A stretch of DNA of 38,053 nt from Comamonadaceae bacterium (GTDB taxonomy: Bacteria; Pseudomonadota; Gammaproteobacteria; Burkholderiales; Burkholderiaceae_C), in contig CANFQF010000008.1 of the NCBI GenBank assembly GCA_947449025.1, positions 1-38,053 of the forward strand. The letters run 5' to 3'. Both the position numbers and the translations under genes were made by a program. Shown one piece after another: positions 1 through 32,800 of this stretch (position 1 is the stretch's first letter; each line of letters starts with the position of its first letter). A model generated the notes under the pieces. The model was not told where the DNA came from. It saw nothing but the letters and a program-made list of their open reading frames with translations, and ran no database searches.

Positions 1-9
1 GCTGGCCAT
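1..9 (-). CDS. Start of a further operon gene, cut by the window edge
   Basis: Only three codons (M-A-S) are inside the window. I call a start because the minus strand has a strong ribosome binding site, AAGGGGAG at 16-23, six bases before the ATG at 9-7. It begins 34 bases after the stop of the CoA-transferase gene on the same strand, so it probably continues the catabolic operon. Its product cannot be read. By pathway logic a CoA-ester hydratase or lyase would fit, but that is only inference. Confidence 0.5.
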
Positions 10-43
10 CAGGCACTCCCCTTCTTGCAATGGTGTGTGGTTA

Positions 44-1285
44 TCAGGTCAGCGCGCCATCGGCCGCGAGTGCCGCGATGTCCTCCGGAGACAGCCCCAG
101 CAGCTCGCGGCAGACCTCCTGCGTATGCTGGCCCAGCAAGGGCGCGGGTTGCCGGCCGCCCGGTGGCGCGTTCTTCATCCGAAATGGCTGCGCGTTGTAA
201 AGCGAGGGGCCCATTTCGGGGTGGTCCAGTGTGAGCCAGTGACCGCGGTGGGCCAGTTGGGGGTCCTCGATCACATCGGCAGCAGTGCTCACGCGGGCGG
301 CGGGGATACCGGCAGCCTGCAGAGTCTGAGCCAGCGCGATCGCATCAAAGCCGGCTGTCTGCTTCGCCAGAAGTGCATCGAGGTCAGCGCAATGCGCGCG
401 GCGCCCTTCGGCGCTCGCGAAGACCGGCTGGGTCGCCCAATCCGGGCTTCCGAGTGCGTGAACCAGCCGGGCCCACTGGCCGTCATCGTGCACGCCGATC
501 GCGATCCAGCGGTCTTCGCCGGCGCAAGGGTAGGCGCCGTAGGGCGCAGCCTCGTCCGAGCTGGCATTGCCGCGCGCGCCGGCGTTGATGCCATTGACGG
601 TGTAGTCCATCACCTGCGGTCCGAGCAGGGCAATCGTCGGCTCGGTCTGGGCCATGTCGATGTACTGGCCCTGGCCGGTGCGGCGCCGGTGCCGCAGTGC
701 GGCGAGCACCGCGAAGGTTGCATGGCAGGGGTTGGGCAGGTGGTCGGGGTAATTGGTGCCCGTGCCTGCCGGTTCACGCCCGGGCAAGCCGGTGAGGTGC
801 TGGATACCGGTGACGGCGGCCATGGTGGCGCCGTAGCCCAGATAGCCGCTCTCCGGCCCGGTGGCGCCTTGCATCGACATGGCGAGGTAAATGATGTCGG
901 GCTTAATCCGACGCACCGCCTCGTAGCCCAGACCGAAGCGGTCCATCACACCTGGGGTGAAGTTGTTGGCGATCACATCGCTTTGCACGATCAGGCGCGA
1001 GACCAGCTCGATCGCGCGCGGATGCTTCATATTGAGAGTGAGGCTGCGCTTGCTGGAGTTGCGGTCCGCAAAATAGCCGCTGCGGTTGACACCCTTGATG
1101 CCGTCTTTGTAGGGCGCTGCCAGGCGCAGCGAGTCGATACGGTCCGCGCTTTCGATCTTCACCACGTCGGCGCCGGAGTCGGCCAGCATCTTGGTGGTGT
1201 AGGAGCCCGCACCGATCCAGGTGAAGTCCGTGACGCGGATGCCCGCCAGGGGTTGGGCGGCGGCGCCTTGCCTTGCCTCGGTCAT
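44..1285 (-). CDS. CaiB/BaiF family CoA-transferase (subunit with Asp)
   Basis: A 413-residue family III CoA-transferase, which moves CoA between carboxylic acids through an aspartyl thioester. The N-terminal motif LAGIRVTDFTWIGAGSY and the segment KIESADRIDSLR are typical of the family, and the length is normal. Asp181 in NYPDHLPNPCHATF lies where the catalytic Asp is expected. I chose the ATG at 1285 because it overlaps the upstream stop as TGATG; a TTG codon just before it is less likely. It is the last complete gene of the operon in the window. Its neighbour is a second, divergent CaiB paralogue, so the two may form one heteromeric enzyme, as in benzylsuccinate-type CoA-transferases. The acid substrate is unknown. 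Confidence 0.9.
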   Translation of the reverse strand: MTEARQGAAAQPLAGIRVTDFTWIGAGSYTTKMLADSGADVVKIESADRIDSLRLAAPYKDGIKGVNRSGYFADRNSSKRSLTLNMKHPRAIELVSRLIVQSDVIANNFTPGVMDRFGLGYEAVRRIKPDIIYLAMSMQGATGPESGYLGYGATMAAVTGIQHLTGLPGREPAGTGTNYPDHLPNPCHATFAVLAALRHRRRTGQGQYIDMAQTEPTIALLGPQVMDYTVNGINAGARGNASSDEAAPYGAYPCAGEDRWIAIGVHDDGQWARLVHALGSPDWATQPVFASAEGRRAHCADLDALLAKQTAGFDAIALAQTLQAAGIPAARVSTAADVIEDPQLAHRGHWLTLDHPEMGPSLYNAQPFRMKNAPPGGRQPAPLLGQHTQEVCRELLGLSPEDIAALAADGALT

Positions 1286-2577
1286 CAAATCACTCCTTCA
1301 CTGGCCAGTTGTGCGCGCCGCGTGGCGTCCACGCCCAGAGCCTCATAGACCTGCGCACTGTCCTGGCCGAGCGCAGGCGCCGGGTGGCGCAGCTGCCAGG
1401 GTGTGGCTGCCAGGCGGTACGGTGCGCCCGGCATGCGCAGTGGGCGGGTGGTGGCCGGGTGCGCCACTTCGACGAAGTAGCCGCGGGCCTCGAGCTGCCG
1501 GCTCACCGCCAGATCGGCCGGCGTCTGGATGGCAGCGACCGGCACATGGCGACGCTGACCCTCCGCATAGAGCTGGGCCTTGGTCTGGGTCTGGGCCCAG
1601 GCGCCAAAGACCTCCATAAAAATTTGCTTGGCCTCATCGGACTGGAGGTACTCGGTGCGCGTCCACTCCTCGCCCAGCAGGCGCTCGCGCCCGGCCACGC
1701 CCTCGTCGGCGAACCACTCGAGGGTGAGCCCCCAGAAACGGTTGGCGCCAATCCCCCCGGCCATCATGTAGACATGGCCGTCGGCGCAGGCATAGACACC
1801 GGTGCCGGCAAAGCGTTGCTGGCCCGCGGTTCGCTTGCGCACCGTGTTCTCGAGGTCATAGAACTGGACCGCGTTTTCCATCGCCAGCACCATGCATTCC
1901 TGCATCGAGACGTCCACATGGTCGCCCTGGCCCTGGAGCTCGGCCCGGGTCAGTGCAAGCATCGAAGCCACTGCACCGAACATCGACGCACCGGCGTAGC
2001 CCTGCTCGCCACAAGCCCCCACGGGGGCGCTGTCCGGGTAGCCACCGAGGTACAGAAACCCACCAGAGGCAATGCCGGTGAGGTCATCGGCCTCATCGTC
2101 CGCGTAGGGACCGGTCTGGCCGAAGCCAGTGACGCTGGTCATGACGAGGGTGGGGTGTGCCGCCGACAGCGTCTCCCAGCCGCAGCCGGCAGCCGCCAGG
2201 CGGCCTGGCTTTTCGGCCTCGAGAAACAGGTCGCTGCCCGCCACCAGCGCACGAAGCAAACGGGCACCCTCTGGCTTGCGCCAGTCGAGGGTGATGCTGC
2301 GCTTGCTGGTGTTGAGATAACTGAAGGACAGGCTGTGCGACGCGCCATCGGTGCTGCCAGGCATGCCGCCGATGTGCGGGCCCGCGCTGCGGGTGGCGCT
2401 GCCGCCGGGGGGCTCCACGAGAATGACCTCGGCGCCCAGTTCGGCAAACATCTTGCCGCAGTAATGCGTGAGGGGGCTGGCCAGTTCGATCACGCGCAGG
2501 CCGCTCAGTGCCTGCGGTGTTCCGGAGTTGACGGCGACCGGGGTGCCCCCCGTGACGGGGTTGGAGGCGCCTGTCAT
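1285..2577 (-). CDS. CaiB/BaiF family CoA-transferase paralogue, Asp apparently missing
   Basis: A 430-residue family III CoA-transferase homologue. Family features are LSGLRVIELASPLTHYCGKM near residue 25, a VILVEPPGG segment near 51, and TSVTGFGQTGPYADDEADDL near 147. Where the family normally has its catalytic Asp, before an alanine-rich helix, this protein reads GEQGYAGASMFGAVASM (about 190-206), with no Asp at the aligned place. It may therefore be a structural or regulatory partner of the CoA-transferase encoded next. The ATG at 2577 overlaps the upstream stop by four bases (ATGA); an in-frame start further upstream would run deep into the MmgE/PrpD gene and is unlikely. Family assignment is firm; loss of activity is inferred by eye. 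Confidence 0.88.
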   Translation of the reverse strand: MTGASNPVTGGTPVAVNSGTPQALSGLRVIELASPLTHYCGKMFAELGAEVILVEPPGGSATRSAGPHIGGMPGSTDGASHSLSFSYLNTSKRSITLDWRKPEGARLLRALVAGSDLFLEAEKPGRLAAAGCGWETLSAAHPTLVMTSVTGFGQTGPYADDEADDLTGIASGGFLYLGGYPDSAPVGACGEQGYAGASMFGAVASMLALTRAELQGQGDHVDVSMQECMVLAMENAVQFYDLENTVRKRTAGQQRFAGTGVYACADGHVYMMAGGIGANRFWGLTLEWFADEGVAGRERLLGEEWTRTEYLQSDEAKQIFMEVFGAWAQTQTKAQLYAEGQRRHVPVAAIQTPADLAVSRQLEARGYFVEVAHPATTRPLRMPGAPYRLAATPWQLRHPAPALGQDSAQVYEALGVDATRRAQLASEGVI

Positions 2578-4022
2578 GCGCGTCCCCCGTGGTGGAGGAT
2601 GTTCACCAGCTGTGACACATCGGGGCAGGTCTCGAGCGCGTGGAGCTGGGCGAGTGCTTGATCGGCCACGCCCGGGGCCAGGCGAGCGGCCTGTGCGCAG
2701 TCGGCGAACTTGGCTTCGATGGCCGCCCAATCGAGTTCACGTGAGGGGTGACCCGGCGCCTTGTCCACGCGCAGGGACGCGCGGCGCCCGTCGCGCAGCT
2801 CCATCTCCACCGTGACCCAGCCACGACTGCCGGAGCTGCGGCTTTCGTATTGGGGGTCTTCCAGGTCGCGGCAGGACTCGTCTTCGCGGGCGTCGATGCG
2901 GTCATACAGCGCCGCGATCTCGGGGCGGTTCACCGCTTCGTCGGTGAAGGACCACAGGGTGAAGCGTCCATCCAGCAGGCCCGCTGCCAGCGGGTAGTGC
3001 AGGCTGAACTTGCCTTCCAGGCCAGTGACTGGGCGCGGATAGGTGAGCACCAGCATGCCGCCGGGCGGCATGCGGCAGGTCAGGCGGGTCACGTCGTCGG
3101 CGCTGGCGCCGAGCTCCTCGCGCAGGCGAATGACGGCATCCATGGCCCGGTGCGAGGCATAGCAGCAGGCAAACTTCTTGAGCGCGATGCCCGGGTCGCT
3201 GATGACCCAGGCCGGGGACTCGAGCGCGTCGATGGCCACCTGGGGGTTGGAGCCCGGCACGCCATACGAAGCATAAAAGCCCGACTTGGCCTCCAGCGAG
3301 TCCTGCGTCGCTTCGAACCCGGACAGCGCCAGGCGCAGGGCCTGCACGGCATTGCGCGCGGCGAGGCCGGTGTGCAGGGGCTTGGTCATGGTGCCGAAAT
3401 TGCGCCGCACGCCGCTGGCCATGGAGGAGGCGATGCCCATCGCCACACGGGTGTGCTCTTCATCGAGCTTCCAGGCCTTGGCTAGAGCGGTGAGAGCTGA
3501 GAACATGCCCAGCGTGCCGGTTCCGTGAAACCCTCGCTGGTAGTGACCGACCGTGATGCCCTGGGCGATGCGGGCGCCAGCCTCGATGCCCACCACATAG
3601 GCTTCGACGAACTCGGCACCGGTCAGCGGGTGCGCGCCCAGGTCGGCGATCAGTGCGGCGACGATGATCGCGCTGGGGTGCGCCGGCATCATCGAGAGCA
3701 CATCGTCAAAGTCGAGCGCGTGACCGAAGGTGCCGTTGATCAGGGCCGCCGTCTCCGGCGAGGCGGCGCGGTCGGTGCCCAAGATCGGCGAGTGACCGCC
3801 GCTCTCGAGTGCCAGGTAGCGCATCAAGGGCTCGGTCACTTCGCTGTCGGCGCCCGACAAAATCACCGCAAAGGTGTCGGCAATGACCTTGCGCGCCTTG
3901 TCGAGTGCGTCAGCCGGAAATTGGTCGGCGCTGGCCTGCACCACGAACCGCGCGACATGCGCGGTGAGGGCCGGGGGGAGCGGGGCGGAGTGGGCGTCGT
4001 GGCCGTGGGAAGGAGCGCTCAT
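2574..4022 (-). CDS. MmgE/PrpD family protein
   Basis: A 482-residue member of the family that holds 2-methylcitrate dehydratase (PrpD) and cis-aconitate decarboxylase. Typical signs are KARKVIADTFAVILSG near the N-terminus, INGTFGHALDFDDV near 95-110, and the central block KKFACCYASHRAMDAVIRLR. Members dehydrate, hydrate or decarboxylate branched di- and tricarboxylic acids; the exact reaction here cannot be read. The start at 4022 forms an ATGA overlap with the preceding Ldh-family gene and the stop forms another with the next CoA-transferase, so it is tightly coupled inside the operon. With a PrpF-type isomerase in the same operon, an aconitate-like or methylitaconate-like intermediate is plausible. 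Confidence 0.9.
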   Translation of the reverse strand: MSAPSHGHDAHSAPLPPALTAHVARFVVQASADQFPADALDKARKVIADTFAVILSGADSEVTEPLMRYLALESGGHSPILGTDRAASPETAALINGTFGHALDFDDVLSMMPAHPSAIIVAALIADLGAHPLTGAEFVEAYVVGIEAGARIAQGITVGHYQRGFHGTGTLGMFSALTALAKAWKLDEEHTRVAMGIASSMASGVRRNFGTMTKPLHTGLAARNAVQALRLALSGFEATQDSLEAKSGFYASYGVPGSNPQVAIDALESPAWVISDPGIALKKFACCYASHRAMDAVIRLREELGASADDVTRLTCRMPPGGMLVLTYPRPVTGLEGKFSLHYPLAAGLLDGRFTLWSFTDEAVNRPEIAALYDRIDAREDESCRDLEDPQYESRSSGSRGWVTVEMELRDGRRASLRVDKAPGHPSRELDWAAIEAKFADCAQAARLAPGVADQALAQLHALETCPDVSQLVNILHHGGRA

Positions 4023-5089
4023 GTGGGAAGACTTTCGGGAAGGCGTTCGGAAGGACTGGTCGAAACTTCGGGCGTGGCGGCGACTTGGCATGCGGGTGCC
4101 AGCCGTGACAGTGCGTCAAACACCAGCCGGTCGATGACCACGCCTTCACGCAGGTGGCGCGCGCGCAGCTGGCCCGCGCGTTCGGAAGGAATTCGAACCG
4201 GGTGGTCGCTGTCCACCGCGGGGGTCGCGCGGATGCGATCGACCTCCTCGCGCAGGTGGGTTTCGAAGGTGTGGTTCGGGATCAGCAGGTCGGGCCGCAT
4301 GGCCAGGAAGAAGTAGCCATAGTCTTTGTCGGCGGTAAAGCCTGAGCCGGCGAACACGCCCAGCGCCTGCACCGCTAGCGCCAGGGCGTAGCCCTTGTGG
4401 CCGCCATAGGGCAGCAGCGCACCAGCGCGCGCGGCGTGCGGGTCGGTGGTGGGATGACCCTGCGGGTCGATGGCCACGCCTTCGGGCAGCGGCCGATTCA
4501 GTCGCTCAAAAAGCGAGAGCTCGCTCGACATGAAGGCGGCGGTGCCGAAGTCGATCACCAGCGGTTCGCCGCCCGTCGGGAATCCGAACGACACCGGGTT
4601 GGTGCCCAGCATCTTCTGGGCACCGCCAAAGGGCGCCACATGACGCGCCGAGCTCACCGTGTGCAGGCCGATGAAGCCGGCACGGGCGATGCGCTCCACA
4701 TAGTAGGCGCCGCGTCCGCTGGTCCAGGTGTTGGTCATGCCCACCACCGCGATGCCCAGCGCCTGCGCCTTCTCGATCGCCACGTCGGTGGCCCGCCGCA
4801 GGGCGAGCATGCCGGTGTTGTTGCCGCCATCGAGCAGCGTCGACACCGGCGTTTCATGAATCGCCGCGATCGGCTGGCGCGGGCGGGTCGCCTTGGCCTT
4901 TTCCAGCACATTGAGAATCTTGGGCAAGCCCGAATACTCATAGCCGCACAGGGCCGCGTCCACCACGTGATCCGCGATGGCCGCCGACTCCGCCGGGTCG
5001 TAGCCGTTGGCGGCGAGGACCGCCTCACTGAGCGCGCGGGCGTCCGCCACGGTCAGTCGGACACGACTGACGCCTGCCGCCATCGTCAT
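4019..5089 (-). CDS. Ldh-family (malate/L-lactate dehydrogenase type) oxidoreductase
   Basis: A 356-residue protein of the NAD(P)-dependent Ldh_2 family, whose members oxidise 2-hydroxy acids (malate, sulfolactate, ureidoglycolate) or reduce cyclic imines. Family signs are GTNPVSFGFPTGGEPLVIDFGTAAF (about 162-186) and LPYGGHKGYALALAVQAL towards the C-terminus. Two places where I expect conserved histidines are changed: the usual SHG near residue 50 reads GYEYSGLPK, and the usual SNHxG near 120 reads TNTWTSGRG. This points to altered chemistry or another substrate class. ATG 5089 overlaps the upstream Bug gene stop as ATGA; ATG 5083 is an alternative. The next gene again overlaps by four bases. 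Confidence 0.88.
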   Translation of the reverse strand: MTMAAGVSRVRLTVADARALSEAVLAANGYDPAESAAIADHVVDAALCGYEYSGLPKILNVLEKAKATRPRQPIAAIHETPVSTLLDGGNNTGMLALRRATDVAIEKAQALGIAVVGMTNTWTSGRGAYYVERIARAGFIGLHTVSSARHVAPFGGAQKMLGTNPVSFGFPTGGEPLVIDFGTAAFMSSELSLFERLNRPLPEGVAIDPQGHPTTDPHAARAGALLPYGGHKGYALALAVQALGVFAGSGFTADKDYGYFFLAMRPDLLIPNHTFETHLREEVDRIRATPAVDSDHPVRIPSERAGQLRARHLREGVVIDRLVFDALSRLAPACQVAATPEVSTSPSERLPESLPT

Positions 5090-6066
5090 TCGGCGGTGGC
5101 TCCGGTGTCCTTGACCACCTTGGCCCACTTGGTCACTTCGGTCTGGATGAAGGTACGAAATTCGGCCGGCGTGGAGCCGCGCGGCTCGGCGCCCGCATTG
5201 GCCAGCTGGGTGCGAATCTCCGGCGAGTCCAGAGCTTTGCGCACTTCACGACTGAGCAGGTCGGCGATGGCCGGCGGCGTGCCCTTGGGCGCGACGATGC
5301 CCCACCACACCGTGGCATCGAAGCCAGGCACCGTCTCGGCGACAGCGGGCAGCTCGGGCAGCAGCGTCGAACGCTTTTGCGTGGTCACCGCCAGCGCCAC
5401 CAGCTGGCCCGTCTTGATGTAGGGGCCCACGCCAATGATGTTGCCAAAGCTCATGACGGTCTGGCCGGCGAGCAAGTCAGTGGTCATCGGGCCGGTCCCG
5501 CGGTAGGGGATGTGGGTCATCTCGATGCCGAAGGCGCTGGCAAACAGGGCGCCGGCCATGTGCTGCGAGCTGCCGGTGCCGTTGGATCCATAGGTCAACT
5601 TGCCCGGGTTGGCCTTGCCGTAGGCCACCAGCTCGGCGAGGCTGCGCACCTTGAGCGAGGGATGGACCACCAGCACATTGGGCGAGCTGCCCACTTGGGA
5701 GAGCGGCGTGAAGTCCCGCAGCGGGTCGTAGCCGACCTTTTTGTACAGCGAGGGGTTGATGCCGTGGCTGCCGACGTTGGCCATCATCAGCGTGTAGCCG
5801 TCACCGTCGGCCTTGGCGACGAACTCGGTGGCGATGATGCCGTTGGCGCCCGCCTTGTTCTCGATCACGACCGGGGTCTTGAGTTGCTCGGACAGCTTTT
5901 GGCCGACCGCGCGCGAGAGCGTGTCGTTACCACCCCCCGGCGGGAAGGGCACGATGAACTTGATCGGCTTGTCCGGAAACTTGCCGACGCCCTGCGCGAG
6001 GGCCGTGCCGCCCAGAAGGGTGGCGACGAGGGCGGCGCAGGTGAGGGTGAGTAGGCGAATTGTCAT
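5086..6066 (-). CDS. Bug/TctC-type tripartite tricarboxylate transporter receptor
   Basis: A 326-residue periplasmic solute-binding protein. Residues 1-25 form a Sec signal peptide (MTIRLLTLTCAALVATLLGG then TALA, cleaved before Gln). The mature part begins with the family motif KFPDKPIKFIVPFPPGGGNDTLSR, and GSNGTGSSQHMAGALF and MTHIPYRGTGPM are standard pocket-forming segments. These receptors bind carboxylates, and the Burkholderiales have many copies, often without their own TctAB membrane subunits; none is seen here. Its place inside the operon makes it the likely scavenging receptor for the acid that the operon degrades. The gap to the upstream PrpF gene is 39 bases; the stop overlaps the next start. 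Confidence 0.93.
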   Translation of the reverse strand: MTIRLLTLTCAALVATLLGGTALAQGVGKFPDKPIKFIVPFPPGGGNDTLSRAVGQKLSEQLKTPVVIENKAGANGIIATEFVAKADGDGYTLMMANVGSHGINPSLYKKVGYDPLRDFTPLSQVGSSPNVLVVHPSLKVRSLAELVAYGKANPGKLTYGSNGTGSSQHMAGALFASAFGIEMTHIPYRGTGPMTTDLLAGQTVMSFGNIIGVGPYIKTGQLVALAVTTQKRSTLLPELPAVAETVPGFDATVWWGIVAPKGTPPAIADLLSREVRKALDSPEIRTQLANAGAEPRGSTPAEFRTFIQTEVTKWAKVVKDTGATAE

Positions 6067-6105
6067 GGATGCTCTCTGGAGGTGTCGGGCGGCGGGCAGA
6101 TGGGA

Positions 6106-7263
6106 CTAGCGCGGCGCCAGGCGTACATAGGCCGTGCCGTCCATGATGCGACGTGCGGTGCGGGAGTACGAGGCCTCATGCAGCGTACCGTCGGCGTCCA
6201 TCCGAATACGCACCGGGAAGATGCCGGTCGGGTGGCCGATGCGCACGATGCCGTCGCCAAAGTCACGCGCCACCTGGTGAACGACAGTGCCGGGCAGGAA
6301 GGCAGCGACCGCGGTGCACACCGCGCCGGTCGCGGCAAAGGCCCGATGCAGGCGCGGCGGCGGACCGCCAACACGCCGGGCCACGAAGCTCACGTCCTCG
6401 GCCCGCACGGTTTCCTTGGTCATGTAGTCGATGTAGTCGGCCGGCTCGCACACGGCCACCGGATGCGGCAGGCGCGACTCGGGGGCGAGGCCCACATGGG
6501 CGGCAGCGGCGTTGCGCACCGCCCAGAAGCGATCGAGGATTTCGGGCGTGAACTGGTCCGGGCCTTCGGTGCCTTCAATGCCGACGTCGCGGGCGCGAAA
6601 GTAGCAGGTGGCCTTGGCCACGTCGACGATGGAAACCTCAATGCTGCGCCCGAGTTCGGGAACGAACAGCATGTCGCTGGCGTTGCCACTGGGCAGCACC
6701 TTCCCGGTACTCGCGCCACTGGTGGCGGCAAAGTCCAGCCGGATCTCGGCAGAGGTTCCCGGCACGCCGGCGATCGCGTAGTCGCCCGTGGCGCAAGGCG
6801 TGCCATCGGCCTCCACCGGCACATAGGCCACCAGCAGCTGCTTCGTGTTGGTGTTGTAGATGCGGACCCGGGTCTCGGGCGCCACCGGCTCGACCAGGCC
6901 CTCTTCGATCGCAAAGGTGCCCACGCCCGCCGAAAGGTTGCCGCAGTTGGCCGAGTAGGACACATAGCCCTGCTCGATGCCGACCTGGCCGAAGGTGTAG
7001 TCGACGTCCGCATCCGGGCGCTCACTGCGGCGCACGATCACGATCTTGCTGGTGAGGGTGTCGGCACCGCCCAGGCCGTCGATCTGGCGCGGGTCCGGGC
7101 TGCCGATCACCTGCAGCAGGACGCTGTCACGCTCGGCCGGATCGCTGGGCAGATCGTCGGCATGGAAGTAGATACCGCGGCTGGTGCCGCCGCGAATGAC
7201 CGCGCAGTGGACCGCGCGCTGGCGCGCCAGGCGGGGCGCAGCGACTTTGACTTTCTGAAGCAT
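6106..7263 (-). CDS. PrpF-family isomerase (aconitate/itaconate-type)
   Basis: A 385-residue PrpF-family protein. The family includes 2-methylaconitate cis-trans isomerase, 3-methylitaconate isomerase and 4-oxalomesaconate tautomerase, all of which move a double bond in unsaturated di- or tricarboxylates by proton transfer. The N-terminal AVIRGGTSRGIYFHADDL (21-38) is the family signature. Lys73 in TLTSKIVIV and Cys107 in SANCGNLSAG agree with the Lys/Cys acid-base pair I recall for PrpF. ATG 7263 has AAGGGGA about nine bases upstream. It is the second gene of the operon, 20 bases after the enolase-superfamily gene. There is no prpC or prpB nearby, so this is not a methylcitrate operon, and I give no gene symbol. 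Confidence 0.88.
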   Translation of the reverse strand: MLQKVKVAAPRLARQRAVHCAVIRGGTSRGIYFHADDLPSDPAERDSVLLQVIGSPDPRQIDGLGGADTLTSKIVIVRRSERPDADVDYTFGQVGIEQGYVSYSANCGNLSAGVGTFAIEEGLVEPVAPETRVRIYNTNTKQLLVAYVPVEADGTPCATGDYAIAGVPGTSAEIRLDFAATSGASTGKVLPSGNASDMLFVPELGRSIEVSIVDVAKATCYFRARDVGIEGTEGPDQFTPEILDRFWAVRNAAAAHVGLAPESRLPHPVAVCEPADYIDYMTKETVRAEDVSFVARRVGGPPPRLHRAFAATGAVCTAVAAFLPGTVVHQVARDFGDGIVRIGHPTGIFPVRIRMDADGTLHEASYSRTARRIMDGTAYVRLAPR

Positions 7264-7283
7264 GGCGTGGTTCCCCTTTGAAT

Positions 7284-8390
7284 TCACCAGTCCAGCCGGT
7301 ACATGGCCAGCTTGTCGGCGTCGATCTCGGCGCCGGCACCGGGCACATCGGGCACGTGCAACTTGCCGTCGCGAATGTCGATGGGGTGGGCCAGCAGGTC
7401 GTCTTGCTGCTTGAGCGGGGTCGACAGGTCGGCCGGGTAGGTGACGCTGCGGAAGGCAGCGGCAAACTGGGCGCTCGCCACCGCGCCAATGCCCGAGACG
7501 CCCTGCGATCCGATCCAGCAAGGCAGGCCGAAAGCCTCGGCGGCATGGGCGATGCGCATGGACTCGTACATGCCGGTGCGGGCGATCTTGATGCCCATGA
7601 CACCGATCGCGCCGTCTTGCAATTCGCGCCGGGCTTCCGGCAGAGAGAAGACGCTGTCGTCGGCCAGGATCGGGGTGGAAATGGCGTCGGCCACCTTCTT
7701 GCGCCAGCTGCCCAGGGTGATGGCCACCGGCTCTTCGGCCATGGCCAGGCCAAAGTGCTCCATCGCGCGGATGGTGCGAATGGCCACGTCGGGGGAATAG
7801 AGCTGATTGGCGTCGATGAACAAGAGCGCATCGTCGCCGAGCGCGCGGCGCAGCATCTCCATGCGGCGAATGTCACCCGCGGGGTCGGAGCCGGCCTTGA
7901 TCTTGAAGGCGCGAATGCCATAGCGCTCTCGGACGTCCATCGCCTCGCGCACGAACTCCGTGTCGTCGTTGAAGTTCAAACTGAGCATCCAGCTCACTTC
8001 GACCGGCTTAAGCTGGCCGCCGAGCAGGCGGGCCAGGTTCACGCCCAACTCCTGCGCCGCCAGGTCATGCAGCGCGGTATCGATGGCGGCCTTGGCGGTG
8101 GGGTTCCAGGGCACGGCGCCGAGCTTGTCCTGGTAGGACTCGCGGTCCAGGGGGTCGCAGCCCATCAGCATCGGGGCAATCGTGTCGCGCACGATGTGCA
8201 CGATCGAGCGCTGGGTCTCGCCGTAAATCGAGGGGCGCGCGGGCGCCTCCCCAATACCGACCTTGCCGCTCTCCGAGGTGATGCGGACCACCACATGGTC
8301 CTGCGCATCCCGCTTGCCGTGGGCGCCCCAGCGAGAGGCTTTTTTAAGCGGAATCCGGAAGGGAATCGCTTCGATCTGAATCACTTTCAC
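7284..8390 (-). CDS. Enolase superfamily, mandelate racemase/muconate-lactonizing type
   Basis: A 368-residue enolase-superfamily enzyme, of normal length, with a capping N-domain and a C-terminal barrel. The muconate-lactonizing subgroup pattern is visible: Lys163 and Lys165 (FKIKAG), metal ligands Asp193 (FIDANQ), Glu219 or Glu220 (MAEEP) and Asp244 or 245 (LADDS), and Lys268 (GIKIARTG). Such enzymes abstract a proton next to a carboxylate and then racemise, cycloisomerise or dehydrate. I chose the GTG at 8390 because AGGAGA lies eight bases before it and MKVIQIEAIPFRIPL matches family N-termini; a TTG at 8444 lacks these. It is the first gene of the catabolic operon, so it may catalyse the first committed step. 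Substrate unknown. Confidence 0.9.
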   Translation of the reverse strand: MKVIQIEAIPFRIPLKKASRWGAHGKRDAQDHVVVRITSESGKVGIGEAPARPSIYGETQRSIVHIVRDTIAPMLMGCDPLDRESYQDKLGAVPWNPTAKAAIDTALHDLAAQELGVNLARLLGGQLKPVEVSWMLSLNFNDDTEFVREAMDVRERYGIRAFKIKAGSDPAGDIRRMEMLRRALGDDALLFIDANQLYSPDVAIRTIRAMEHFGLAMAEEPVAITLGSWRKKVADAISTPILADDSVFSLPEARRELQDGAIGVMGIKIARTGMYESMRIAHAAEAFGLPCWIGSQGVSGIGAVASAQFAAAFRSVTYPADLSTPLKQQDDLLAHPIDIRDGKLHVPDVPGAGAEIDADKLAMYRLDW

Positions 8391-8434
8391 GACAAAGGTC
8401 TCCTGCGGGTGCGGGCGCGCGATGCGCCCTGGAA

Positions 8435-8450
8435 GTTCATCCAATGGAAC
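8435..8450. promoter_or_regulatory. Candidate IclR-type operator 1
   Basis: Imperfect palindrome GTTCATCCAATGGAAC. Read on the minus strand it contains GTTCCA-N4-ATG, which occurs a second time at 8519-8531 on the plus strand. Its size and its place just downstream of the candidate operon promoter suit an IclR-family repressor. No binding data are implied. Confidence 0.4.
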
Positions 8451-8470
8451 GAAAAAAATGGACTCGGGCC

Positions 8471-8498
8471 ACTCTATTCCCTGCTAAGTTCGCGTCAA
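8471..8498 (-). promoter_or_regulatory. Candidate sigma-70 promoter of the catabolic operon
   Basis: Minus strand: -35 TTGACG (8498-8493, five of six), 16-base spacer, -10 TAGAGT (8476-8471, four of six). Transcription would begin near 8464 and leave a leader of about 75 bases before the GTG at 8390. A palindromic candidate operator lies within that leader, where a bound repressor would block transcription. Confidence 0.5.
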
Positions 8499-8518
8499 AT
8501 AGCCCTCCACTGCTTTTT

Positions 8519-8535
8519 GTTCCACGACATGGGAA
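8519..8535 (+). promoter_or_regulatory. Candidate IclR-type operator 2
   Basis: GTTCCACGACATGGGAA shares GTTCCA-N4-ATG with operator 1 on the other strand and has TTCC/GGAA half-sites. It spans the regulator's own start codon, which would fit autoregulation. Confidence 0.33.
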
Positions 8536-9338
8536 AAGTTGAAGCCACCGCCCACGTGCCGGGCACACAGCTGATTGCCCGCATCGCGTCGCTGCTGCGG
8601 GTCCTGGCGATCCGCAACCGGAGCGGCGCCCGCCTGATCGAGCTGTGCCGCGACACCGGCCTGGAGCGCTCCACGGTGCACCGCGTCTTGCAGGGCCTGG
8701 TTGCCGAGGGTCTGGTGATGCAGGAGCACAAGTCCAAGCGATACCGCCTGGGCAATTCGATTTACGAGCTGGGGCTGGCGGCCGCGCCGCGCACCCAGCT
8801 GCGGGATCTGTGCCAGCCCATGCTGACCGCCGTCGCCGAGCAGACCGGTGACACCGTCTTTTTGAGCGAGCGTGTCGGCTTCGACGGGGTCTGCCTCGAT
8901 CGCAAGGATGGCAGCTACCCCATCAAGGCCTTTGTCCTGGAGCCGGGGCGCCGGCGTCCGCTGTTGGTGGGTTGCGGCAATCTGGCGATGCTCAGCGCCA
9001 TGGACGACGACGAAGTGGCGCGCATCTGCCGCGCCACCGCCTCCCAAGTGGCCGAGCGCTATGCGCGCCTGACACCCGAGGTGCTGCAAGAGCGCATCGC
9101 CACCACCCGCAAGAACGGTTTTGCCTACACCGACGTGCTGGAAACCAGCGGGGTGAGTTCCGTCGCGGTGTGCATCCGCGACCCCTCTGGCCGGCCCCTG
9201 GCGGCTCTCAGCGTGTCCAGCATCACGCCGCGCCTGTCGGGCGCCCGAGTGGCCGAATGCGTGGAGTCATTGCGCGAAGCCGTGCGGGAGATCGAGCTGC
9301 GGCTGCCGCTCACATCCTTGGCGCCGACACCGCCCTGA
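8529..9338 (+). CDS. IclR-family transcriptional regulator
   Basis: A 269-residue IclR-family regulator. Residues about 15-75 form the winged helix-turn-helix (IARIASLLRVLAIRN, LIELCRDTGLERSTVHRVLQ, KRYRLGNSIYELG). The rest is the GAF-like effector domain, with LSERVGFDGVCLDRKDG, a central glycine-rich turn, and the C-terminal GVSSVAVCIRDPSGRPLAALSVS. Length is normal. It is divergent from the seven-gene catabolic operon, with 138 bases between the start codons, the usual place for a local regulator whose effector is the pathway substrate or an early product. The ATG at 8529 is the first plausible start before the DNA-binding domain. It ends 19 bases before the convergent ruvB stop. Confidence 0.92.
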   Translation: MGKVEATAHVPGTQLIARIASLLRVLAIRNRSGARLIELCRDTGLERSTVHRVLQGLVAEGLVMQEHKSKRYRLGNSIYELGLAAAPRTQLRDLCQPMLTAVAEQTGDTVFLSERVGFDGVCLDRKDGSYPIKAFVLEPGRRRPLLVGCGNLAMLSAMDDDEVARICRATASQVAERYARLTPEVLQERIATTRKNGFAYTDVLETSGVSSVAVCIRDPSGRPLAALSVSSITPRLSGARVAECVESLREAVREIELRLPLTSLAPTPP

Positions 9339-9357: not shown

Positions 9358-10419
9358 TTAGTTGCCGGCGCCGAACAAGCCGCCCACGGCCGTGGGGGGC
9401 GTCACGCCCAGGTGACGAAAGGCCGCCAGCGTGGCGATCCGTCCGCGCGGGGTGCGCTGCAGATAGCCCTGCTGAATGAGGTAAGGCTCGATCACATCCT
9501 CGATCGTCCCCGACTCTTCGCCGATGCTGGCGGCGATGTTGTCCAAGCCCACCGGTCCGCCATCAAAGCGGTGAATCACCGCTTCGAGCAGCTTGCGGTC
9601 CATCAGATCAAAGCCCTGCGGGTCGACATCGAGCATGGCCAGGGCCTTTTGCGCAATCTCTTGAGTGATGCGGCCGTCGCCCTTGACCTCGGCGTAGTCA
9701 CGCACACGGCGTAGCAACCGGTTGGCGATACGCGGTGTGCCGCGCGAGCGGCGGGCGATTTCCTGGCCGCCGGCCTCGTCCATCGGCGCGCCCAGCAAGC
9801 CGGCGCTGCGCCAGACGATGCGGGCGAGTTCTTCTGGCGTGTAGAACTCCAGCCGGGCAACGATGCCGAAGCGGTCCCGCAGCGGATTGGTGAGCATGCC
9901 GGCGCGGGTGGTGGCGCCCACCAGGGTGAAGGGCTGCAGGTCGAGCTTGATCGAACGGGCAGCCGGCCCCTCACCGATCATGATGTCGATCTGGTAGTCC
10001 TCGAGCGCCGGGTAGAGAATTTCCTCGACCACCGGCGAGAGCCGGTGAATCTCGTCGATAAAGAGGACGTCGTTGCGCTCGAGGTTGGTCAAAAGCGCGG
10101 CCAGGTCCTTGGGTTTTTCGAGCACCGGGCCCGAGGTCTGGCGCAGGTTCACTCCCAGTTCGTGGGCAATGATGTGTGAGAGGGTGGTCTTGCCCAGGCC
10201 AGGCGGGCCAAAGAGCAGCACATGGTCCAGCGCTTCGCCGCGCCGGGTGGCAGCGCCGATGAAAATTTCGAGTTGCTCACGGGTCTTGGCCTGACCCACA
10301 TACTCTTGGAGCAGCTTGGGTCGCAGGGCCCGCTCGATCGCCTCCTCGCCGGGCGAAGTGGGTGCGGCCGAGACCATGCGGGCGGGCGCGGGAGCGAAGT
10401 CGTCGGTCTGGATGGTCAT
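9358..10419 (-). CDS. ruvB: Holliday junction branch-migration helicase RuvB
   Basis: A 353-residue AAA+ motor that, with RuvA, drives branch migration of Holliday junctions. Walker A is [10 protein letters not shown], Walker B DEIHR, sensor 1 TTRAGM, and the arginine-finger segment NPLRDRFGI. The C-terminal winged-helix domain reads [21 protein letters not shown] and the [18 protein letters not shown] segment. Length and order are standard. The unusual point is context: a protease gene of about 1.5 kb stands between it and ruvA on the same strand, whereas these genes are commonly adjacent. The start ATG at 10419 agrees with family N-termini. Confidence 0.98.
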
Positions 10420-10486
10420 GGATGTCAGCTATGGTACTGCGCCTACCGCTGGTGCCAGGACCGCTCTCCGGATTGCCCGAGGCCGC

Positions 10487-12034
10487 TCAGCTGCCAGGCA
10501 CCGACCCCAGCCAGGACCGAAGGAGCGGGTAGGCCCGGTCCATGCGGCCGAAGTAGTCGTTCGCAGTGGGGTCGCTGCAGCTCGATGAGCCTGCGAACAG
10601 GTGGCCGACGACATAGCGGCGGCTTCCCACCTGGGCAAAGATCGGCGAGCCGCTGCTGCCCTGGGCGGTAACGCCCCGCGTCCAGCGCAGCACCAGGTAG
10701 TTGCCATCAGAAGCGTCGTCGGCCTGGCAGAAATTGCCGATGCAGCTGCCATAAGCATTCACTCGGCCTTCGCTGAACTTGAGGGTCGTCCCGCCGGGGT
10801 GATGCAGGGCGCCCACGGCCACGCCCAAGGCCGGCTGCCCCACCAGGGAGCCTGCATGAACGGCGCCCGTTGGCGGCCGCCCCGCCAAGCGCAGAAAAGT
10901 CAGATCGGAATCGGCCGAGACCAACAGCAAGGCGGCCCCTCCCTGCAGTTCCACCGCGTCAGGGCTCACGGAGCTGCTGTTACAGGTCCCGGTGCGGTAG
11001 AACCAGTAGGTTGCCACCGTAGAGGCCTCGGTCTGGGTGCCGACACAGTGGTTGGCGGTGAGGAAATAAGGTGTGCCGCTCACCGCGGTGTCGGCCATCA
11101 GCGTGCCGGTGCAGAAGTAAGAGTAGTTGGCGTCCCCGTCCCGCAGGTATTCCAGACGCGCCACCGCTCGCGCCTCATAGGAATAGGCGGACTCGCAGGT
11201 GGCGTCGATGTGGCAGGTGCCGATGTCGAGACCCGGCGCCGCTGCACGGCGCTGCGAGTCCAGGTTGGCCGCGTGGGTCCACCACAGGTGGGACAGCCGC
11301 GGCACGGCCAAGGCCAATTCAGCGGGAGACACACCCGCCGGCAACTCGATCTGGAGCGTCGCCTCCTCACCGGCGACCGTCGGTGTCCAAAACAAGGGGG
11401 CTGGGAGCGCCGATGGGGGCGAGGTGCGAACACCCGCCTGCCCATCACGCGCCAGACTGCCCACCACTTCCGAACCCAGAAGTCGAACAGGCGGGCCCGC
11501 GGTCCCAAACACGCGCAGCGCGGCCTGGGCAGGCAGTCGGTCCACCGCCAGGCCGAGCCGCAGGCCGGCCGCCCCCTCGGAACGAAAGGTCACGGCCGCC
11601 ACCAAGCCGCCCGACGCCGAGGGCTCCCATTGCAGCAACGCTCCCAGGCGCTGGTTGTCTGCTGCGATGGGCACCGCTCGGCCCTGGCCAATGCGCACGG
11701 GCTGGCCCGAAGCACGCGGACCAGCCTCGACCGCCGGATCGACCAAAAGAGGGAGCACCACCCGCGCCGGCACCACCGCCGGCACCGAGGGTTCAGAGGA
11801 AACGCTGCGCAACTGCACCAGAGACATGCTGGCAGTGCGCTCGTAGGGCTCGATTCGGGCCACACCGTCGTTGGTAGGCGGGCCGGGGTCGGGTTGAACG
11901 CCACCGCCGCCGCAAGCTGCCAAGGCCAGGGCAGCGCTGCAAGCCAGAAGGCCGAAGGGCGCGCGCAAGGCCTGCAGCTTTGGCCAATAGAAGGAGCGCG
12001 CAAAGCGCTGTGCGAGACGAGAGGCGGTCGGCAT
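10487..12034 (-). CDS. Trypsin-like serine protease lipoprotein
   Basis: A 515-residue predicted exported lipoprotein. A long basic N-region is followed by a hydrophobic stretch and the lipobox ALALAAC with Cys41, then GGGG. The C-terminal half is an S1-type protease: His329 in FLTANHCVG, Asp377 in SDLTFLRL and Ser461 in QGSSGSP form the triad. The segment GTCHIDATCESAYSYEARAVARL before it resembles lysyl-endopeptidase-like proteases. Residues about 50-290 form an uncharacterised region that could be a propeptide or binding domain. It probably sits on the outer membrane or periplasmic face. The ATG at 12034 is preferred over an upstream GTG because it gives a cleaner signal peptide, though its ribosome binding site is weak. 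It lies between ruvA and ruvB with no functional link to them. Confidence 0.85.
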   Translation of the reverse strand: MPTASRLAQRFARSFYWPKLQALRAPFGLLACSAALALAACGGGGVQPDPGPPTNDGVARIEPYERTASMSLVQLRSVSSEPSVPAVVPARVVLPLLVDPAVEAGPRASGQPVRIGQGRAVPIAADNQRLGALLQWEPSASGGLVAAVTFRSEGAAGLRLGLAVDRLPAQAALRVFGTAGPPVRLLGSEVVGSLARDGQAGVRTSPPSALPAPLFWTPTVAGEEATLQIELPAGVSPAELALAVPRLSHLWWTHAANLDSQRRAAAPGLDIGTCHIDATCESAYSYEARAVARLEYLRDGDANYSYFCTGTLMADTAVSGTPYFLTANHCVGTQTEASTVATYWFYRTGTCNSSSVSPDAVELQGGAALLLVSADSDLTFLRLAGRPPTGAVHAGSLVGQPALGVAVGALHHPGGTTLKFSEGRVNAYGSCIGNFCQADDASDGNYLVLRWTRGVTAQGSSGSPIFAQVGSRRYVVGHLFAGSSSCSDPTANDYFGRMDRAYPLLRSWLGSVPGS

Positions 12035-12131
12035 GAATGGCTGGGTTTGCGGCTCTGGAGTGTCGACGGTCGGGCGAGCGCCCGATGTCAGCGCGCACGC
12101 CACAGGAGGGTCGGACGCAGGCCCAGGCCTT

Positions 12132-12707
12132 TCACTTGGCCAGCGCCTTGAGCGCCGCCTTGATGCCCTCGCTCACGCCCACGCCCTCGGGCAGTGCCTT
12201 GAGCGCCGCACTGGCTTCGCGGTCACTGTAGCCCAGGGCCAGCAAGGCCTGCAGGATGTCGGCCTGGGCGTCGCTGCGCGGGCCGCCGCCCACCGGGCCC
12301 AGGTCGGCCCCCAGCTTGCCTTTGAGTTCAAGCAGCAGGCGCTCGGCGGTCTTTTTGCCGATGCCCGGCACCTTGACCAGCCGGCCTGCGTCCTGGGCGG
12401 TGATCGCCTGGGCGATCTCGGTGACGCTCATGCCGGAGAGTACCGAGAGGGCAGTGCGCGGGCCCACGCCAGAGATCTTGATCAACTGCCGGAAAGTCTC
12501 GCGCTCGCCCACGGTGAGAAAGCCATAGAGGATTTGCGCATCCTCGCGGACCAGGAAGTGGGTCAGGAGCGAGACTTTCTCGCCCAAGGCCGGCAGGTTG
12601 TAGAAGCTGCTCATGGGGACATCGACCTCGTAGCCGACGCCATAGCAGTCGATCAGCACCTGCGGTGGGTTGCGATCGACCAGAGTTCCGGTGAGTTTGC
12701 CTATCAT
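12132..12707 (-). CDS. ruvA: Holliday junction DNA helicase subunit RuvA
   Basis: A 191-residue tetrameric DNA-binding subunit of the RuvAB complex. It begins with the typical [31 protein letters not shown] (OB domain, shown here only as a reference to residues 1-31). Two helix-hairpin-helix motifs follow, [15 protein letters not shown] and [20 protein letters not shown], and then a small C-terminal domain [20 protein letters not shown] that contacts RuvB. AGGA lies five bases before the ATG at 12707. It is divergent from phoH with only 51 bases between the starts. The next gene on the strand is the protease lipoprotein rather than ruvB. Confidence 0.98.
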
Positions 12708-29884: not shown

Positions 29885-32800
29885 TCACGCCCGCGCCAGC
29901 ACTGGCGCCAGCGCAACGCCCGTGTGGGTGCCCAGGCGCACCACCTCCTCGGGCGGTGCGCTCGCCACCACCTGGCCACCGGCATCGCCGCCCTCGGGTC
30001 CGAGGTCGACGATCCAATCCGCTTCGGCGATCAAATCGAGATCGTGCTCAATGACAACCACGCTGTGCCCGCCGTCCACCAAACGGTGCAGCACGCGAAT
30101 GAGCTTTTCCACGTCGGCCATGTGCAGGCCCACCGTCGGCTCGTCCAGCACATACAGCGTGTGCGGCGCCTTCTGGCCGCGGCGAGTCACGTCGTCGCGC
30201 ACCTTGGACAGCTCGGTCACCAACTTGATCCGCTGCGCCTCGCCGCCGGAGAGCGTGGGTGATGGCTGGCCGAGGGTGAGGTAGCCCAAGCCCACGTCTT
30301 TGAGCAACTGCAGCGGGTGGCTGATATTCGGCATGGAAGCGAAAAATTCCACCGCCTCGTCTACCTCCATCTGCAGCACGTCGCCGATGCTCTTGCCGCG
30401 CCAGGTCACGGCCAGGGTCTCGGGATTGAATCGTGCGCCATGGCAAGACTCGCACAGCACCTTCACGTCGGGCAAAAAGCTCATCGCGATGGTGCGCAGG
30501 CCCTGGCCTTCGCACGTGGGGCAGCGACCCTCGCCGGTGTTGAAGGAGAAGCGCCCGGGCCCATAGCCGCGGGCCTTGGCCTCCAAGGTGTCGGCAAAGA
30601 GCTTGCGCACCGTATCCCAGAAGCCGATGTAGGTGGCGGGGCAGGAGCGCGGCGTCTTGCCGATGGGGGTCTGGTCGACCTCCAGCACCCGGTCGATGCC
30701 CTGGTAGCCGGTGAGCGAGCGGCAGTCCACCCACTCCGGATGCTGGCCGCGCTCGTCGGCCTCGCGCCCGGCCTTGGTGGAGCGCTGTTGAACGCCGCGC
30801 TGCACGTTCTCCAGCAGCACGTCACGCGCCAGCGTGGACTTGCCCGAGCCCGAGACGCCCGTCACCACCACCAGCCTTTGCAAAGGCACATCCACGTCAA
30901 CGTCGCCCAGGTTGTGCAAACTGGCGCCGCGCAGCTGCATCCAGGCGTCGCCGGGACCACGCCGGGCTTTGAGCGGGTGCTTCATCGCGTGCAGCAGGTA
31001 GCGGCCGGTGATGGAGTCTGCGCTGGCGGTGACATCAGCCACCGAGCCCTGGGCCACCAACTGGCCCCCGCGCTTGCCGGCGCTGGGGCCGATGTCGATC
31101 ACATGGTCAGCACGGCGGATGGTGTCCTCGTCATGCTCCACCACCACCAGGGTATTGCCCTTGTCGCCCAGCTTGTGCAGGGCATTGAGCAGGATCTGAT
31201 TGTCGCGAGCGTGCAGGCCGATGGTGGGCTCGTCCAGCACGTAGCACACGCCCTGCAGGTTCGAGCCCAGTTGGGCCGCGAGTCGAATGCGCTGGGCCTC
31301 GCCCCCTGAGAGGGTTGGCGCGCCACGGTCCAGAGTGAGATAGCCCAGGCCCACTTCCTCCAGGAACTCAAGCCGGCTGCGGATCTCGGGGATCAGGTCG
31401 CGGGCGATGCCCTGCTCGCGCAAGCTCAGGCTGCCTTCGACCTGCAGGCCCTCAACCCAGCGCCGCAGGTCGGTCACCGACAGGGCCGCCACGTCGGCGA
31501 TGCCCACGCCGCTGAAGCGGACCGCGCGCGCCTGGGCGTTGAGCCGACTGCCTTCGCAGCCGGGGCAGGTCTCGTCACTCACATCTTCCACATCGACCTC
31601 GGCAAAGGTCTGCTCCCGCCCCTTGTTGTCCTCGTCCATCACGGAGTCGTCCAGGACCTTGCGCTGGTCGCGGGTGAGCTTGACTCCGGTGCCGACGCAG
31701 TCCGGGCACCAGCCGTGTTTGCTGTTGTAGGAGAACAGGCGCGGGTCCAGCTCGGCGTAGGAGGTGCTGCACACCGGGCAAGCCCGGCGGACCGAGAAAA
31801 CCTCCACCTGACCAATGTGGTGGTGACGGCCCAGGCCCAGGTCCATCGCCTCATGCAGGCCGTCGAGTGGCGCCAGCAGATGCAGGACCCCCTTGCCATG
31901 CTCGAGGGCGATGGTAATGAGCTCGCGCAGCGCGCCTTCCGTGTCCGGGCCCACCTTCAGATCGCCGACCGGCAGCTCGATGGAGTGTTCCTTGAATCGA
32001 TCCAGGCGGGGGAAACCGGTGGTGGGCAAAAAGTCGCCGTCGACTCGCAGGTGGGTGTAGCGCCGGGCCCGGGCCCAGTCGGCCAGCTCGGTGTAGACCC
32101 CTTTGCGATTGAGCACCAGCGGCGCGAGCAAGCCCACATGCTGGCCGCGCCAGCGCCGCATGATCTGGGCCGCGATGCTGTCGGGCGTTTGCGGACGCAC
32201 CTCGGCGCTGTCCTTCACACAGTGCTGGATCCCCAGCTTCACATACAGCAAGCGCAGGAAGTGCCAGACCTCGGTGGTCGTGCCTACCGTGGACTTGCGG
32301 CCGCCGCGCGAAAGGCGCTGCTCGATGGCCACCGTCGGGGGTATGCCATAGACCGCGTCGACCTCCGGCCGGCCAGCCGGCTGCACGATGCTGCGGGCGT
32401 AGGCGTTGAGCGATTCGAGATAGCGGCGCTGCCCCTCGTTGAACAAGATGTCGAAGGCAAGCGTCGACTTGCCCGAGCCCGAGACACCGGTCACCACGCT
32501 GAACTTGCCGTGCGGGATGTTGACCGAGAGCGACTTGAGGTTGTGCTCGCGGGCGTTGACGATCTCGATCGCGTCCGCGCGGCGCGCCCGCACCACGGCC
32601 TGCAAGGGCCGGCCCTCCTGGGCCAGCACGGCGCCCTCGCCGAGGGCGTGGTCGTACTCGCGCAGGGCGCGGGCCGTGTGCGAGGTGGGGTGCTGCTTCA
32701 GGTCCTCGGGCGAGCCTTCGGCCACCAGCAAACCACCGGCGTCGCCACCCTCGGGCCCGAGATCGATCAACCAGTCGGCGGCGCGAATCACGTCCAGGTT

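Follow-up and report, generated by a model that had tools for sequence, protein, structure and literature searches.

A twelve-gene operon of a Comamonadaceae bacterium predicted to degrade 2-substituted succinate or itaconate-type acids by retro-aldol cleavage

Which acid is broken down by an operon that sets an enolase-superfamily enzyme beside a PrpF isomerase, a Bug receptor, two dehydrogenases, an MmgE/PrpD protein and two CaiB-family proteins, and how is the carbon skeleton of that acid cleaved? The question is raised by the left end of a 38,053-nucleotide stretch of DNA from a Comamonadaceae bacterium, here called the window, which comprises bases 1-38053 of contig C8 (CANFQF010000008.1) in a 304-contig draft genome (GCA_947449025.1). 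The initial annotation of this DNA had read seven genes next to a divergent IclR regulator as one unit and had proposed import, proton-transfer rearrangement, oxidation or dehydration, and CoA activation, followed by cleavage by a product encoded off the window, an outline that holds in part. In the reading that is probably correct, the operon is catabolic and under IclR control, and serves to degrade a 2-substituted succinate or itaconate-type acid, which would be cleaved by a retro-aldol reaction.

The seven genes are all intact, lie on the minus strand from 8390 to 44 in the order that had been described, and belong to the Pfam families MR_MLE, PrpF, TctC (Bug), Ldh_2, MmgE_PrpD and, twice, CoA_transf_3, each of them, like the divergent IclR gene, scoring above its own cut-off:

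7284..8390, minus strand: enolase-superfamily enzyme of the muconate-lactonizing type (MLE-like), 368 amino acids; Pfam MR_MLE N and C; best PDB match 3dg3, 242 bits
6106..7263, minus strand: PrpF-family isomerase, 385 amino acids; Pfam PrpF
5086..6066, minus strand: Bug (TctC) solute-binding receptor, 326 amino acids; Pfam TctC 246 bits
4019..5089, minus strand: Ldh_2-family oxidoreductase, 356 amino acids; Pfam Ldh_2 274 bits; best PDB match L-sulfolactate dehydrogenase, 141 bits
2574..4022, minus strand: MmgE/PrpD-family protein (PrpD), predicted epimerase type, 482 amino acids; best PDB match iminodisuccinate epimerase, 232 bits
1285..2577, minus strand: CaiE, CaiB-family CoA-transferase subunit, BbsE-like, 430 amino acids; best PDB match 9fn0_A, 240 bits, the next 133
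44..1285, minus strand: CaiF, CaiB-family CoA-transferase subunit, BbsF-like, 413 amino acids; best PDB match 9fn0_B, 366 bits, the next 194
1..149, no strand: exact 149-bp overlap with contig C182 (locus L009), the reverse-complemented end of which equals window bases 1-149

Gaps of 20 and 39 bp separate MLE-like from PrpF and PrpF from Bug, whereas Bug/Ldh_2, Ldh_2/PrpD and PrpD/CaiE share 4 bases each and CaiE/CaiF share 1 or 4, according to which start codon is chosen. The operon continues beyond the contig edge, where at least one more gene had been expected and where C182 carries five further genes, all co-directional with the operon and assigned by Pfam:

L009 141-923: enoyl-CoA hydratase (ECH)
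L009 964 or 973-2109: Ltp2-like aldolase
L009 2115-2546: DUF35 partner
L009 2543-3529: D-2-hydroxyacid dehydrogenase
L009 3575-4549: second Bug receptor

The complete operon comprises twelve genes in about 13 kb, and its last gene is followed on C182 by a convergent Bug gene. The joint between C8 and C182 is bridged without a break by the locus L032 (Ramlibacter sp. B02.bin.21), with nucleotide identities of 92, 90 and 90% in the three longest blocks and 86% in the fourth. Because the genes overlap and a relative is collinear, the earlier prediction of one transcription unit is supported. Beside the operon (L009 4622-6599; L032 8544-13755) lie genes for a Bug receptor, a CaiB protein with an N-terminal extension, another PrpD and another Bug, which are perhaps a second small acid operon.

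From the observed gene content, gene order, families and active-site residues, the reactions, their order and the substrate may be deduced as follows. The Bug receptors would bind the acid for import, following which the MLE-like enzyme would open a lactone by β-elimination, the PrpD-like protein would epimerize C2 and the PrpF-like protein would shift the double bond to give an alkylidene-succinate. The BbsE/F-type transferase would then form its CoA ester with succinyl-CoA as the donor, the crotonase would hydrate this to a 2-(1-hydroxyalkyl)succinyl-CoA, and the Ltp2-like/DUF35 pair would split the latter into an aldehyde or 2-oxoacid and succinyl-CoA, regenerating the CoA donor; in the bbs pathway, according to passages of PMC10818641, succinyl-CoA is likewise both donor and product. 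The Ldh_2 and D-2-hydroxyacid dehydrogenases would act on a hydroxy acid or an oxo acid, either upstream or downstream of the cleavage step, and with an acid that is unsaturated on arrival an acyl-CoA dehydrogenase would be unnecessary. A 2-substituted succinate or itaconate is proposed because the nearest relatives of three proteins agree on it (BbsE/F for the transferase, iminodisuccinate epimerase for PrpD, 3-methylitaconate isomerase for PrpF), and a hydratase with an Ltp2-type aldolase fits the cleavage of the CoA ester of such an acid. The import, proton-transfer rearrangement and CoA activation of the earlier outline are supported as sequence predictions.

The transferase and the genes that follow it could also serve a benzylsuccinate-style β-oxidation, in which hydration and oxidation by dehydrogenases to a 3-oxoacyl-CoA would lead to thiolysis by a BbsAB-type thiolase. 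CaiE and CaiF are predicted BbsE- and BbsF-type subunits, matched subunit by subunit to the two chains of benzylsuccinate CoA-transferase in the PDB (CaiF scores 366 bits with 9fn0_B vs 112 with 9fn0_A, CaiE 240 with 9fn0_A vs 62 with 9fn0_B), in a comparison that is limited to PDB entries and in which other two-subunit CaiB transferases are absent from the match lists. D181 of CaiF, presumably the catalytic Asp, is conserved in 38 of 38 relatives; the presumed equivalent position of CaiE is occupied by a Tyr, and none of its 37 relatives has an Asp within the surrounding five residues. Since an enoyl-CoA hydratase and a thiolase-fold/DUF35 pair come next, as in bbs, the statement of the initial annotation that the benzylsuccinate set is unlike this operon was wrong, and there is weak similarity of the two proteins to the NCBIfam models of BbsB (113 bits, cut-off 750) and BbsA (44 bits, cut-off 250). 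However, in a profile alignment with BbsB (7pxp_C) the operon protein has Gly85, YDNF and SESY where BbsB has Cys, HDAF and GHP, and BbsAB-type thiolysis is rejected on these active-site residues. The protein is also nearer to Ltp2 (6ok1_A, 213 bits; the top match is 4u4e, 225 bits) than to BbsB (105 bits), and among the twelve genes Pfam finds no family for either an acyl-CoA dehydrogenase (BbsG) or a short-chain dehydrogenase (BbsCD). A benzylsuccinate-style route is accordingly regarded as unlikely.

The residues that favor retro-aldol cleavage instead are the counterparts of Ltp2 Tyr294 (in YDHF) and Tyr344, the catalytic roles of which are described in passages of PMC12329534 and which align with Y279 and Y329 of the operon aldolase. 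In an alignment of 54 aldolase sequences, which takes in the operon's own protein and its paralogue, the thiolase nucleophile position (85) is without Cys in every sequence (a Cys lies two residues further on in five), YD[NS]F occurs in all 53 that are complete at that site, the remaining one being truncated there, and the second site holds Tyr in 45 of 53, Phe in five and His in three. The DUF35 protein combines OB_ChsH2_C and zf-ChsH2 (Pfam) with a zinc motif C-x2-C-x10-C-x2-C in its translation, and its best PDB matches, 9myr_B and 6ok1_B (ChsH2-DUF35), are each the partner chain in an aldolase-type entry. The prediction that the two proteins form a retro-aldol cleaving pair is thereby supported, and with it the earlier proposal that cleavage is due to a product encoded off the window. 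The NCBIfam models closest to the aldolase, acetyl-CoA acetyltransferase (316 of 421 bits) and lipid-transfer protein (298 of 469), both stay under their cut-offs, and an AlphaFold model built from 11 sequences had a mean predicted local distance difference test score (pLDDT) of 41, too low for use. In ECH two Glu, which we take to be the crotonase catalytic residues, are conserved in 39 of 39 sequences.

A tricarboxylate route would be a special case of the preferred model, with R = COOH: aconitate or the lactone of isocitrate would pass through aconityl-CoA and isocitryl-CoA to glyoxylate and succinyl-CoA, and the D-2-hydroxyacid dehydrogenase would reduce the glyoxylate. The top NCBIfam models of this dehydrogenase are indeed glyoxylate reductase and phosphoglycerate dehydrogenase, such enzymes are among its best PDB matches, and its gene overlaps that of DUF35. 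Its score with the glyoxylate reductase model is, however, far under the cut-off (185 of 455 bits), and CoA activation would be needless here, given that isocitrate lyase cleaves isocitrate without it; the route is considered improbable.

The rearranging enzymes bear on a third possibility, a ring-fission route, in which the MLE-like enzyme would act on a muconate or carboxymuconate derived from an aromatic acid and PrpF would be a 4-oxalomesaconate-type tautomerase. The best PDB match of the MLE-like enzyme (3dg3) is a muconate cycloisomerase, and the top NCBIfam models of the two proteins are muconate cycloisomerase (TIGR02534, 194.8 bits) and 4-oxalomesaconate tautomerase (NF033377, 318.1 bits). 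In two metagenome-assembled genomes (MAGs; L037 and L039, 2-4338), moreover, the operon is adjoined by genes of the homogentisate type, which by eye resemble a phenolic monooxygenase, homogentisate dioxygenase and fumarylacetoacetase. Yet both scores fall below their cut-offs (334.95 and 440), no ring-cleavage dioxygenase is present among the twelve genes, the MLE-like gene was not found in four of eight cassette genomes, and PrpF is closer to 3-methylitaconate isomerase (3g7k, 330 bits) than to 4-oxalomesaconate isomerase (227) or PrpF itself (216), so that ring fission seems very unlikely. Six residues of the MLE-like enzyme (K163, K165, D193, E219, D245 and K268), which we take to be the catalytic ones of the enolase superfamily, are conserved in all three close relatives, and K73 and C107 of PrpF in 16 of 16. 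The lactone role is inferred for the MLE-like enzyme, a loose precedent being the unrelated 2-hydroxyparaconate lactonase of the Pseudomonas aeruginosa itaconate cluster (described in part of PMC9875883).

In the case of PrpD, the aligned counterparts of H115 and Y161 in iminodisuccinate epimerase (2hp0) are likewise a His and a Tyr, presumably exactly its catalytic pair, and among homologues near cassettes the His is kept in 30 of 30 and the Tyr in 26 of 30. Matches to 2-methylcitrate dehydratase reach just 22-27 bits in the PDB and 21.9-38.6 bits with the curated models, the cut-offs of which are 458-950. Passages of PMC12290011 describe an epimerase class of MmgE/PrpD proteins with a catalytic His and an additional catalytic Tyr, and report that the MmgE/PrpD protein of the itaconate cluster was shown to be a methylsuccinate isomerase. 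As PrpD appears to be of the epimerase type, dehydration or decarboxylation is less likely, which weakens the dehydration alternative in the earlier outline. The methylcitrate cycle is rejected, with PrpD and PrpF far under the curated model scores.

The aldolase was also sought in one genome each for 84,980 species, in a scan started from two short peptide patterns, which returned 131 stretches and at least 50 confirmed loci. In Paracidovorax cattleyae (L035), a named isolate, the genes from MLE to the D-2-hydroxyacid dehydrogenase are collinear with those of the window, which argues that the association is more than chance; a further thiolase-like gene and two class I CoA-transferase genes lie there in the same direction (L035 14619-17546). 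A near-full operon is found without MLE in a Comamonadaceae MAG (L036), with PrpF nearby and convergent in three MAGs (L037-L039), in the genomes of two of which (L037 and L039) no MLE or Ldh_2 was found, and in the Ramlibacter locus, where MLE and Ldh_2 lie at another contig end, so that their contiguity is unproven. The operon is split and divergent in Bordetella sp. BOR01 (L033), with Ldh_2 elsewhere; Candidimonas nitroreducens (L080), also with Ldh_2 elsewhere, has it beside another aldolase, only 40% identical, in which both Tyr are retained.

In 28 loci among L032-L078 that are at least 17 kb long and have an aldolase above 300 bits (shorter loci were not counted, and the equally long L075, with a weaker aldolase, and L080 stand outside the set), a core cassette recurs: DUF35 in 27, CaiE and CaiF in 26 each, ECH in 24 and PrpD in 22. 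The other genes are less frequent, namely acyl-CoA dehydrogenase (15, including edge fragments or weak matches of 104-188 bits in L055, L056, L059 and L065), PrpF (12), D-2-hydroxyacid dehydrogenase (6), Ldh_2 (4) and MLE (2). Acyl-CoA dehydrogenase and D-2-hydroxyacid dehydrogenase are together in none of the 28 and both absent from seven. Sister cassettes (L049, L053-L059, L075-L078) have genes for iron alcohol or aldehyde dehydrogenases nearby, most of them together with acyl-CoA dehydrogenase, as would be expected if an aldehyde is released. The bacterium's own contig C39 (L010 7288-14837) carries a paralogous cassette, ECH-CaiE-CaiF-Thl-DUF35 with a double CaiB protein, the Thl of which is 75% identical to the operon aldolase.

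At the thresholds used, the core cassette is rare and patchy: an aldolase at E<=1e-110 occurs in two of 399 genomes of the order, the own one included, and an MLE-like gene at E<=1e-80 in one of 299 genomes of the family, the own one. The initial annotation had named lack of conservation in relatives as a point against it; this is what the 298 other family genomes show, while the operon recurs in scattered genera. Tracing through the MLE-like gene (14 places in 13 genomes of the order, with seven non-own regions inspected) did not find the operon there. The closest of the relatives described (G584, 62%) lies among Bug genes, other CaiB genes (26-31%) and a 36% PrpD, in a region without PrpF, Ldh_2 or the aldolase cassette; around relatives of 36-40% in the inspected regions the operon homologues are Bug genes alone, once with a PrpD fragment. 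The five plasmid matches (37.5-40.1% identity) are all from actinobacteria.

It has to be noted that several points weigh against a retro-aldol operon for 2-substituted succinates. The entry that outscores Ltp2 as a match of the aldolase, 4u4e, is labelled just 'Thiolase', and the sole NCBIfam match of the DUF35 protein is the BbsA model already mentioned. The second Tyr is replaced by Phe in the C39 paralogue and four other loci (L051, L052, L063, L064) and by His in three sequences, and the oxyanion His of the YDHF motif is Asn in the operon aldolase (Asn in 44 of 53 sequences, Ser in nine), where replacement in Ltp2 cost 14-fold in efficiency according to passages of PMC12329534. The locus counts above are uncorrected for kinship; in five of the 28 loci PrpF and acyl-CoA dehydrogenase are together, so PrpF is no simple replacement for the dehydrogenase, and outside the 28, L076-L078 pair weak D-2-hydroxyacid dehydrogenase homologues (26-28%) with acyl-CoA dehydrogenase. 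The core can do without the MLE-like and Ldh_2 genes: four of the eight cassette genomes (G689, G690, G691, G692) give no MLE match at E<=1e-40 and two of these, G690 and G691, no Ldh_2, and the best Ldh_2 of G687 and G693 (54%) is far from the operon. With an unsaturated acid, moreover, the epimerase would have to act prior to double-bond formation.

Control of the operon would fall to the divergent regulator gene, which also adjoins the cassette in L033, L035, L036, L037, L039 and L042:

8530..9338, plus strand: IclR-family regulator; Pfam IclR_C 79.9 bits, HTH_IclR 36.2; start codon uncertain, as an operator-like palindrome overlaps the ATG at 8530
8391..8545, no strand: regulator/operon intergenic region (155 bp) with two putative IclR-type palindromes, 8435-8449 and 8520-8534; motif TTCCAYNNNRTGRAA

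With at most one mismatch, TTCCAYNNNRTGRAA has three distinct sites in the window (four rows, one site being matched on both strands), two of them in the intergenic region; for the window 0.51 matches were expected, but four were reached in 3 of 100 shuffles; the motif was derived from these intergenic regions before counting, which makes the enrichment partly circular. Such sites occur in the corresponding region of five of seven other loci (L033, L035, L036, L042, L080) and not in those of L037 and L039. IclR control through two putative palindromes is only suggested by these matches. Adjoining the IclR gene (window 9358-12707), ruvB and ruvA flank a gene for a trypsin-like secreted protease, as assigned by eye, and a minus-strand open reading frame of 1903 amino acids lies at 29885-35596.

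A wider proposal, on which opinion must stay just short of evenly divided, is that the operon stands for a new pathway class, joining benzylsuccinate-type CoA activation to steroid-type retro-aldol cleavage. Its substrates would be 2-substituted succinates that are lactonized or unsaturated, such as the paraconic and alkylitaconic acids of fungi or lichens, and succinyl-CoA would be both donor and product; saturated succinates would fall to those sister versions that have an acyl-CoA dehydrogenase. Literature searches, judged by titles and abstracts of open-licence PubMed Central papers, gave no publication on this gene set and none on an identical operon, the other point that the initial annotation had named against its reading. 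If true, the proposal would carry a reaction familiar from steroid side chains, retro-aldol cleavage, over to small branched dicarboxylates, would give a testable function to a conserved cassette that profile naming would label 'acetyl-CoA acetyltransferase' and 'CoA transferase', and would predict a new carbon source, possibly fungal or plant, for scattered bacteria.

Among known systems, the plan of the operon resembles that of the itaconate/methylsuccinate cluster (Ict, Ich, Ccl, Mcd, Msi; Pseudomonas, Cupriavidus), as if the lyase had been exchanged for an Ltp2-type aldolase and the dehydrogenase omitted; both have a CoA-transferase, a hydratase, a C-C cleaving enzyme and an MmgE/PrpD epimerase, and would share a branched C4-backbone dicarboxylate (PMC12290011 and PMC9875883, in part). 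It differs in having the Ltp2-like/DUF35 pair in place of citramalyl-CoA lyase, a two-subunit BbsE/F-type transferase, and the additional MLE, PrpF, Ldh_2 and D-2-hydroxyacid dehydrogenase, and neither the acyl-CoA dehydrogenase (Mcd) nor the citramalyl-CoA lyase (Ccl) family is found among its twelve genes, the rest of the genome not having been searched. With the bbs operon it shares the two-subunit CaiB transferase, the hydratase and a thiolase-fold protein with a DUF35 partner, whereas BbsG- and BbsCD-type genes are missing from the twelve and the thiolase-fold protein has the Ltp2 Tyr pair without thiolase residues. The 3-methylitaconate isomerase Mii is the closest solved relative of its PrpF protein, but the context of Mii, nicotinate fermentation, is not seen among the twelve genes. 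The steroid aldolases Ltp2-ChsH2(DUF35) and Sal-Shy (passages of PMC12329534) have in common with the operon aldolase a thiolase fold that lacks the nucleophilic Cys, the YDxF motif, an adjacent DUF35 gene and, in the case of Ltp2, the second Tyr; they differ in that the operon has Asn for the oxyanion His, a crotonase for the MaoC hydratase, and dicarboxylate rather than steroid genes as neighbors. As far as can be judged from sequence, the operon works like the itaconate/methylsuccinate and benzylsuccinate pathways and belongs to neither.

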